A stretch of 48,335 nucleotides of DNA from an uncultured Alphaproteobacteria bacterium (GTDB taxonomy: Bacteria; Pseudomonadota; Alphaproteobacteria; RF32; CAG-239): contig CANPYS010000013.1 of assembly GCA_947588655.1 (NCBI GenBank), positions 1-48,335 of the forward strand, in the 5' to 3' direction. Below the pieces are notes generated by a model. That model did no database searches, was not told where the DNA came from, and was given only the letters and a program-made list of their open reading frames with translations. Each line of letters begins with the position of its first letter. The first letter of the stretch is position 1. Below are positions 31,670 through 45,031 of the stretch, piece by piece. The translations under genes and the position numbers were made by a program.

Positions 31670-31735
31670 CTAAACGTTTGAAACGGCAAAAGTTACTGAC
31701 ATCAAAACTGCTGTTCTTAAAAGATAATTCTTCAT
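31670..31735 (-). CDS. Possible 21-residue leader peptide upstream of the SLOG gene
   Basis: ATG at 31735 with GAAAGG upstream; encodes a hydrophobic, signal-peptide-like sequence (MKNYLLRTAVLMSVTFAVSN plus Val) and stops at 31670, 16 bases before the SLOG start. It sits just after the terminator of structured RNA copy 1. It could be a true leader peptide or the remnant of a lost exported protein gene; evidence is weak. Confidence 0.35.
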   Translation of the reverse strand: MKNYLLRTAVLMSVTFAVSNV

Positions 31736-31764: not shown

Positions 31765-32027
31765 AAAAAGAAAACCACCTTGCGAGGTGGTCGGAGAGTT
31801 CAACAATCATGTTCACTGGATGATTCTTTTAGCCTTTCAGCCGAAGCTTTGGACATTCGCTAAAAGCTCCCCGACCATAGGTAACTATAATCGGGGATAT
31901 ATCTACTGCCGGCTAAGCTTGTAGCTGACAATATGACGACGTTATACCCTAACGCCGAGTGAACAAGAGCTGTTGAATGCTCCGTACCACATTGGGTACT
32001 CAACATGAAAAAATTTCATGCCTGTGT
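31765..32027 (-). ncRNA. Candidate structured RNA, copy 1
   Basis: About 260 nt, minus strand. Promoter: TTGCTT (32058-32053), 15 bases, TATAGC (32037-32032). Hairpins in 5'-3' order: CATGAAA/TTTCATG; GTACC/GGTAC; CGGCGTTA/TAACGTCG with loop GGGTA (31957-31937); TCCCCGA/TCGGGGA (31897-31868); CTTTTAGC/GCTAAAAG enclosing a TTCG tetraloop; AATCAT/ATGATT; and the terminator ACCACCT/AGGTGGT plus T run (31791-31765). GTTCACT (31964-31958) can pair with AGTGAAC (31817-31811) in the loop of the AATCAT hairpin. The second copy at 44764-45031 keeps these pairings with changed bases. I do not recognise it as a named RNA family. Confidence 0.72.
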
Positions 32028-32103
32028 TTAAGCTATAATATACTGTTTGAAAAAGCAAGGGAAATTTTAGGAAATATATGAATTGTAAAAATAGCATAAA
32101 AAT

Positions 32104-43857: not shown

Positions 43858-44748
43858 TTAATGTAATTTTTTTTCAAGAATCCATACCGGTAAGCCAAAC
43901 AAATATATAATTGTTCTTTCTTTGCCAACCAAAACAGTTATGCATTTGATACCTAATATTCTGTATTTGCGTTTTTCATGCCAAGCAAATTTTTCTTGTT
44001 GAATATCTTCATAAGGCGTTTTAATTTTACGGGAATATAAAAAATAACTTTCATAAGTTCTTGCCGCTAAAACTTCATTCTTTTTCTTAATATCTATATC
44101 ACCTTTTGTTATCGCTGTTAAATTATATCTATAATGGTAATAAACACCCGTTACCCAAACGCCTTTACCTAAACTTTCCATAGTTTTCATTGTAAAATAG
44201 GTATCTTCAAACCTTACACCTTCTCGGAAAAATAAATTATTTTTAATAAGTTTTTCACGATTATAAATTTTGTTCCACACTGGAATACGAAATTTATCTA
44301 ATTTTTCTTTAAGCGTTAGGGCAATACTTGTTTCTGGATATTCATAAATCCATGTTACTTTTCCTTCAGGACCGTACCAATAGATACCGCAACACGCAAT
44401 ATCCGCCTTTTGCGCTGTGGCGGCCTGATATAATTTTTCTAAAAACGCCGGATCAATCCAATCATCCGAATCTACAAAAGATATAAATTCGCCTTGAGCC
44501 TCATTAATCCCTACATTACGCGCCGCAGAAAGCCCTTTGTTTTCTTGCGTTATAACTTTAATGCGTTTATCTTTTTGAGCGTATTGCTCTAAAATTTCAG
44601 CTGATTTATCTGTGGAACCATCATTTATGGCAATAATTTCAATATTTTGAAGTGTTTGATTGACGATACTGTCTAAACAATCCGCCAAAAAAAGCGCCAC
44701 ATTATATACCGGAACAATAACAGAAACCGAAATATTGTTTTTATTCAT
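43858..44748 (-). CDS. Family 2 glycosyltransferase
   Basis: 296 residues. GT-A fold: VSVIVPVYNVALFLADCLDS, IIAINDGSTDKSAEIL, GLSAARNVGINEAQGEFISF, DSDDWIDP with the DxD metal site. The C-terminal part is variable and ends in a hydrophobic stretch (IYLFGLPVWILEKKLH). Likely adds a sugar to a surface polysaccharide; substrate unknown, with no polysaccharide cluster around it. Structured RNA copy 2 ends about 16 bases before its start, with AAGGAG between. Confidence 0.92.
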   Translation of the reverse strand: MNKNNISVSVIVPVYNVALFLADCLDSIVNQTLQNIEIIAINDGSTDKSAEILEQYAQKDKRIKVITQENKGLSAARNVGINEAQGEFISFVDSDDWIDPAFLEKLYQAATAQKADIACCGIYWYGPEGKVTWIYEYPETSIALTLKEKLDKFRIPVWNKIYNREKLIKNNLFFREGVRFEDTYFTMKTMESLGKGVWVTGVYYHYRYNLTAITKGDIDIKKKNEVLAARTYESYFLYSRKIKTPYEDIQQEKFAWHEKRKYRILGIKCITVLVGKERTIIYLFGLPVWILEKKLH

Positions 44749-44763
44749 AAAACTCTCCTTACT

Positions 44764-45031
44764 AAAAAACCACCTTCCCTAAGGTGGTCGGAGAGTTCAT
44801 CAATCATATTGCACAAAATGATTCTTATGGCCTTTAAAGCCGTAAAGCTTCTGTTGTATGCGCCAAAAGCTCCCCGACCAAAAAAGCAAAAACAATTTTA
44901 ATCGGGGATATATTTATTGCATGGTCTAAACAACCTGCAACTTAACGATGTTATACCCTAACACCGTGTGCAATAAGGCCGATGAAAGCCCCGTACCTCC
45001 TTGAGGTACTAAATATGGCAAAACCATATCT
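44764..45031 (-). ncRNA. Candidate structured RNA, copy 2
   Basis: About 268 nt, minus strand. Promoter: TTGCTT (45065-45060), 16 bases, TATAAT (45043-45038). Same order of hairpins as copy 1: ATATGG/CCATAT; GTACCTC/GAGGTAC; CGGTGTTA/TAACATCG with loop GGGTA (44966-44946); TCCCCGA/TCGGGGA (44908-44871); CTTTTGGC/GCCATAAG; AATCAT/ATGATT; terminator ACCACCTT/AAGGTGGT plus T run (44788-44764). ATTGCACA (44974-44967) can pair with TGTGCAAT (44815-44808) in the AATCAT loop. It lies directly upstream of the glycosyltransferase, so it is either a separate small RNA or a leader with a terminator. Confidence 0.72.

Follow-up and report, generated by a model that had tools for sequence, protein, structure and literature searches.

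A multi-copy structured leader RNA of Alphaproteobacteria, related to sRNA-Xcc1, as a candidate two-state switch of gene expression

The window analyzed here, a 48,335-nt stretch of DNA from an uncultured alphaproteobacterium (contig CANPYS010000013.1), carries similar, elaborately folded RNA elements ahead of genes, which raises the question of what kind of RNA recurs in this way and what it does for the genes that follow. A sequence-only reading had placed two copies on the minus strand, and both are present, each with a promoter-like element upstream and a G+C-rich hairpin with a T-run at the 3′ end. Copy 1 is a whole structured leader RNA at 31765-32027 (minus strand, as are all features given below), with a predicted start near 32025 and the T-run of a terminator as its 3′ end; copy 2 occupies 44764-45031 (core 44766-44992). 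The promoter-like element of copy 1, TTGCTT-N15-TATAGC (32032-32058), is conserved in kind in other copies and was, like the putative intrinsic terminator ACCACCU/AGGUGGU plus U-run (31765-31792), read from the sequence.

The count of two was too low, as the host genome holds seven copies found by model and three more of a sister subtype. Nucleotide search of this 1.55-Mb genome yielded the seven, and the same seven are recovered by R1, a covariance model built from six of the genome's copies, copies 1 and 2 included; its scores of 224 bits for copy 1 (31771-31983) and 204.8 bits for copy 2 are therefore scores of training sequences. R2, a second covariance model from 49 non-gut sequences, recovers copy 1 at 95 bits and copy 2 at 71.9 bits; the E-values of both models are rough (short calibration). 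Each full copy in the host genome shows the same order: promoter-like element, RNA, terminator, about 17-50 nt, and then a Shine-Dalgarno (SD) sequence and ATG. A promoter-like match accompanies 58 of 91 gut-family copies, versus 13.7 expected from shuffles, and a U-tract at the 3′ end is found in 84 of these 91 copies and in 46 of 118 non-gut copies, rhizobial copies often being without a clear one. At gathering thresholds, Rfam finds only tRNAs in the window; a tmRNA or tRNA-like identity was ruled out, since ARAGORN and Rfam return tRNAs alone.

Briefly, the core of copy 1 is preceded by a hairpin, P0 (GTACC/GGTAC; 31984-31999), which is predicted by RNAalifold and also directly visible. 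It is followed by P1 (GAGC/GCUC; 31967-31982), whose loop L1 (UUCAAC) pairs with 31799-31804 to form PK1, a second loop-to-3′-segment pairing missing from the earlier list of helices; the 5′ strand of P1 could alternatively pair with the 3′ C strand. The 5′ strand of P2 (31958-31966) has its partner in the loop of the AATCAT hairpin (31811-31818). Next comes hairpin P3 (CGGCGUUA/UAACGUCG; 31937-31957), for which the pair counts are those of helix 4. Its loop, GGGUAUA, may pair with UAUAUCC in the segment before P4 (PK3), a pairing with weaker evidence (26 of 106 RNAs exceed the 95th percentile in the swap test described below). The hairpin P4 (UCCCCGA/GGUCGGGGAG; 31867-31897) has a 3′ (G) strand, 31867-31877, in common with an alternative helix, P4alt. 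The P5 arm (31826-31866) carries the most conserved unpaired motif, AUGUYCA ... AAAG (at least 90% conserved), and the loop of hairpin P6 (AAUCAU/AUGAUU; 31805-31825) is the 3′ strand of P2. The 3′ C strand, CUCUCCGACCA (31788-31798), can be partnered by the G strand (P4alt), by the 5′ strand of P1, or be used as the start of the terminator stem; the 3′ hairpin of the family is an intrinsic terminator in the gut group.

The proposal of a structured RNA with covarying long-range helices was borne out far above chance in 106 aligned family members. The changes quoted between the two window copies, CGGCGTTA/TAACGTCG to CGGTGTTA/TAACATCG and GTTCACT/AGTGAAC to TTGCACA/TGTGCAA, are correct, and the pairing with the AATCAT-hairpin loop is real. 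Across the alignment, 93.7% of cells are paired versus 68.8% in shuffles, the covariation score is 0.585 versus 0.195 in shuffles and at most 0.104 in slid controls, and compensatory changes occur in 60 of 61 pairs; the P2 helix is 96.6% paired, with every pair compensated. The alignment was made with R1 and for that reason leans to the helices of R1; P1, P6, and P4alt are not in that model, and their pair counts are therefore more independent. A fold-independent swap test, in which each RNA's strand is set against its own and other RNAs' partners, puts PK1 above the 95th percentile in 77 of 106 RNAs and the P2 strand with its own hairpin loop in 95, compared with 9 and 14 for controls. Outside the gut group, where sequence anchors were used, the counts are 21 of 43 for PK1 and 36 of 43 for P2 (controls, 2 and 0 of 43). 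In addition, G-U cells far outnumber A-C cells (66:0 in PK1, 80:6 in P3, and 77:3 in P5), and selection therefore acts on this strand as RNA.

The strand GGTCGGGGAG had been suggested to have two mutually exclusive partners in a riboswitch-like layout. Both points hold: the two pairings are conserved with compensatory changes, and the geometry is that of a terminator/antiterminator ahead of genes. The GGUCGGGGAG strand has a choice between UCCYYGA just before it (P4) and CUCYCCGACC at the 3′ side (P4alt); the end of the latter is the first arm of the terminator, so that P4alt overlaps this arm. In P4alt, 95% of cells are paired and 9 of 11 pairs have changed on both sides. Its compensated variants, which cluster partly in one genome (G027), include GGGGUG/CACUCC and GGGGUAU/AUGCCCC (both outside the reach of P4) and UGGUUGGAAG/CUUCCAGCC. 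P4alt scores 0.180 versus 0.153 in shuffles, a small margin because the helix is mostly invariant. P4alt is the stronger isolated duplex in 95 of 106 RNAs. By nearest-neighbour energies with pseudoknots ignored, the nested fold is favoured over the fold that contains P4alt by about 14 kcal/mol (median for the full-length RNA), and by about 11 kcal/mol before the 3′ arm of the terminator is made; switching would therefore need tertiary contacts, kinetics, or a partner. We take the two pairings as evidence for a switch whose alternative state would need kinetic or tertiary help. A change between two shapes thus seems within reach of the RNA. Its conserved unpaired motif (AUGUYCA/AAAG) and mutually exclusive helices may, but need not, be the aptamer and expression platform of a metabolite riboswitch.

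On balance, the RNA is probably a cis-acting two-state mRNA leader, either an attenuator or a translational switch, of the sRNA-Xcc1 superfamily, a reading held with some reserve. Transcription would start just upstream of the leader, which would fold with two long-range pairings, L1 with the 3′ segment and P2 with the P6 loop, while the GGUCGGGGAG strand would pair locally (P4) or with 3′ CUCYCCGACC (P4alt). With P4 formed, the 3′ strand would be free to enter the terminator in gut Alphaproteobacteria, and transcription would stop; with P4alt formed, the 5′ arm of the terminator would be occupied, so that transcription would continue into the accessory, surface, or regulatory gene downstream. 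For the gut group, the terminator seems to serve as the output. At many beta- and gammaproteobacterial loci of the sRNA-Xcc1 type, the ribosome-binding site (RBS) carries the pairing partners a second time, and the same elements therefore probably act on translation there. The structure, its covariation, the conservation of both alternatives, and the position directly before genes are the observed part of this model. We infer that the two folds interconvert, that interconversion sets expression, and that a cellular signal biases the folds.

With regard to its affiliation, the RNA had been thought to belong to no named family. This has to be corrected, as relatives match Rfam RF02221 (sRNA-Xcc1) in register over the 3′ half and most RF02221 loci have the same 5′ domain. 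Copy 1, searched against Rfam with permissive settings, gives no RF02221 match at E ≤ 10 and no other match of note, and the RF02221 gathering score (53 bits) is not reached by the window copies. The first match was at locus L190 (short stretches, permissive thresholds); 8 of 18 further loci align along the full 87 nt of the model with the correct register and strand. All nine relatives stay under the gathering score, at 25-37 bits, and P4alt, P5, P6, and the 3′ segment of PK1 align in them on the same strand. The three sister-subtype (RF02221-like) copies of the host genome score 31-34 bits and have the same architecture, before the same kinds of genes. The consensus fold of RF02221 is found here in the same order: P4alt as the outer helix, as in the Rfam structure line, the P5 arm with an internal loop, and P6 as a 6-bp hairpin. 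The idea of a completely unknown family was withdrawn after these in-register matches.

RF02221 is entered in Rfam as an sRNA, with a model limited to 87 nt of the 3′ half, whereas members from Alphaproteobacteria possess additional helices, terminators, and different flanks; sRNA-Xcc1 is reportedly an integron-encoded trans-acting sRNA of Xanthomonas. RF02221 exceeds its gathering score in 39 of 398 genomes of other Proteobacteria. Among 20 of its loci, chosen by score, the 5′ domain lies upstream in 18, with a P1 loop complementary to the PK1 segment (mean run of 7.9 versus 4.9 in swaps), and most have a strand (P2) complementary to the P6 loop. The window RNA thus belongs to the alphaproteobacterial branch of a superfamily that Rfam covers only in part. 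Databases contain about half of the RNA, filed as an sRNA, and the whole RNA is a leader that stands before very many accessory genes.

At roughly half of the RF02221 loci, the pairing strands of the 5′ domain recur around the SD, just ahead of the start codon; for example, locus L334 has TGCAAA-CCCCAA-ACACAAGC in the 5′ domain and TGCAAA-GGAG-ACACAAGC-CATG at the RBS. The same 3′ segments could therefore pair with either the 5′ mimic or the RBS, although the counts are modest (6 and 9 of the 20 score-chosen loci above the 95th percentile). Alphaproteobacteria show no such signal (2 of 37 gut copies and 3 of 64 other copies), and the mechanism was dropped for the window copies, since repeats of L1 and of the P2 strand give no alphaproteobacterial signal.

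Among the genomes searched, R1 matched 86 of 101 in the family, 127 of 153 in the order, and 31 of 385 in a draw from the class; sampling was uneven, and the order and family searches overlap almost fully. R2 matches 53 of the 385 class genomes and also reaches some further classes within the phylum. In two genomes of about 1.5-1.6 Mb, the copies number 74 and 91, which is, to our knowledge, among the highest per-genome numbers for a structured leader. An exact DNA pattern recovered alphaproteobacterial members in Agrobacterium, Rhizobium, Shinella, Microvirga, Methylobacterium, Celeribacter, Acidocella, and Sphingomonas, further members in Granulicella (Acidobacteria), an Akkermansiaceae MAG, and Emticicia (Bacteroidota), and 24 viral contigs; nearly all were confirmed by R1. 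One rhizobial member matched 388 plasmid records by blastn. A search of open-licence papers found no description of the full RNA.

The genes that follow the RNA are diverse. An ORF of at least 100 aa on the same strand starts within 120 nt downstream of 156 of 198 copies, start codons being picked by a simple script, and divergent upstream ORFs accompany 56 of 195. Copies in the host genome precede glycosyltransferases, outer-membrane or signal-peptide proteins, and others. Copy 2 is followed by a family 2 glycosyltransferase gene (43858-44748) whose ATG lies about 17 nt past the terminator. Downstream of copy 1 is a 21-aa signal-peptide remnant (31670-31735; MKNYLLRTAVLMSVTFAVSNV, then a stop), a truncated relative of the MKNxLLxTALVA surface proteins that are intact after other copies; copy 1 may therefore be an orphaned leader. 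In G017, the gut alphaproteobacterial genome of 1.6 Mb with 91 copies, all 23 copies examined precede prepilin-like genes. Plasmid annotations place the RNA immediately ahead of, and on the same strand as, HTH regulators, AraC-type regulators, a DUF2285 gene, and traM.

By Pfam classes, the downstream genes have no common pathway or theme, which would be unusual for a metabolite riboswitch and points to a general physiological signal, a protein partner, or the absence of any ligand. The RNA resembles transcription-attenuating riboswitches in its leader position, its terminator, and its mutually exclusive antiterminator strand, but differs in lacking a coherent metabolic theme downstream and a known ligand. 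Its copies per genome are also far more than is usual for such riboswitches.

The RNA ahead of traM is found on several Agrobacterium plasmids, including pTiC58, whose traM leader is itself a member of the family (R2, 60 bits; about 55 nt separate the end of the match from the traM ATG). This RNA has a perfect tra box about 60-75 nt upstream and is thus between the tra box and the traM ATG. According to a published review, a tra-box promoter drives traM transcription (PMC3907764), and the leader is therefore probably part of the traM mRNA. Lower levels of TraM protein were also reported for an hfq mutant (PMC4201532), a finding that would fit post-transcriptional control and proves nothing about the leader RNA. 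The open-licence papers searched contain no description of the traM leader as a structured RNA. Its position before a textbook quorum-sensing gene in a genetically tractable laboratory strain, A. fabrum C58, makes the leader directly testable.

Alternatively, the element could be a multi-copy small RNA of about 260 nt that acts in trans as a free molecule, the following gene being incidental. This would fit its own promoter and terminator, a nested, terminated fold that is by far the most stable, and the sRNA label of the homologous 87-nt RF02221. It is nevertheless unlikely: the next SD-ATG usually lies 20-50 nt past the terminator, with no room for a promoter, the same-strand downstream bias is strong, leaders multiply together with a gene family, as with the 23 pilin copies, and the pTiC58 RNA sits inside the tra box-traM interval.

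Another possibility, judged quite unlikely, is a put- or EAR-like RNA that acts on RNA polymerase, independently of a ligand, to drive processive antitermination past adjacent and later terminators. Like the HK022 put RNA and the Bacillus EAR element, the RNA is structured and stands before unrelated or surface-polysaccharide genes; it is large and pseudoknotted, the genes are often long or horizontally acquired, and a terminator follows immediately. However, it has no Rfam match to these elements, many members precede single short ORFs, and its terminator arm doubles as a strand of the alternative pairing, a feature that put RNAs can do without.

Up to 91 copies per genome, lineage-specific expansions, presence on plasmids and viral contigs, and the reportedly integron-encoded sRNA-Xcc1 could also suggest a mobile or recombination element that spreads with gene cassettes and whose fold serves mobility rather than expression. 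This is very improbable, since no flanking repeats were seen by eye, no transposase travels along, copies have one orientation relative to genes, and the G-U tolerance indicates selection at the RNA level. A c-di-GMP riboswitch is hardly credible and was rejected as largely refuted, because, despite pilins, adhesins, polysaccharide transferases, and one GGDEF gene among the downstream Pfam classes, complete RNA-bearing genomes (G003, with 15 copies, G219, and G338) are without GGDEF proteins and Rfam gives no match to either c-di-GMP family.

For the cis-acting two-state leader, a wider claim is offered only tentatively, at somewhat less than even chances: that this superfamily RNA serves across the class as an expression switch in cis for accessory and surface genes under one global signal. 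If true, it would act simultaneously on dozens of pilin-like genes in certain gut bacteria and, in Agrobacterium, on traM, and hence on the quorum-sensing control of Ti-plasmid transfer.

Genome G017 contains about 126 prepilin genes of the PilS/bundlin type, an extreme pilin-like expansion, many with their own leader (loci L107-L126). Two or three tandem leaders occur in G027 (L144, 1559-2241; L127), and the same short ORF start (MISKNKN...) recurs after every one of them, which suggests local duplication of leader plus gene start. On pN03G-2 of Bradyrhizobium japonicum, an IS630-type element lies between leader and traM (L303, 1728-2792). Rhizobial-type members (L071, L072, L185, L205, and L298) have an outer 5′ hairpin with ACGCG in its loop and a 3′ hairpin (GCGGGGGCGYACCGC); the loops look complementary by eye (GTACGC/GCGTAC), and such putative kissing is not universal. 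Two copies of Agrobacterium vitis (L175 and L166) carry an extra arm of about 60 nt in the P3-P4 region (CCCTCAGCCATAGGTTTGTGGCTGAGG...) and precede ORFs for small membrane proteins.
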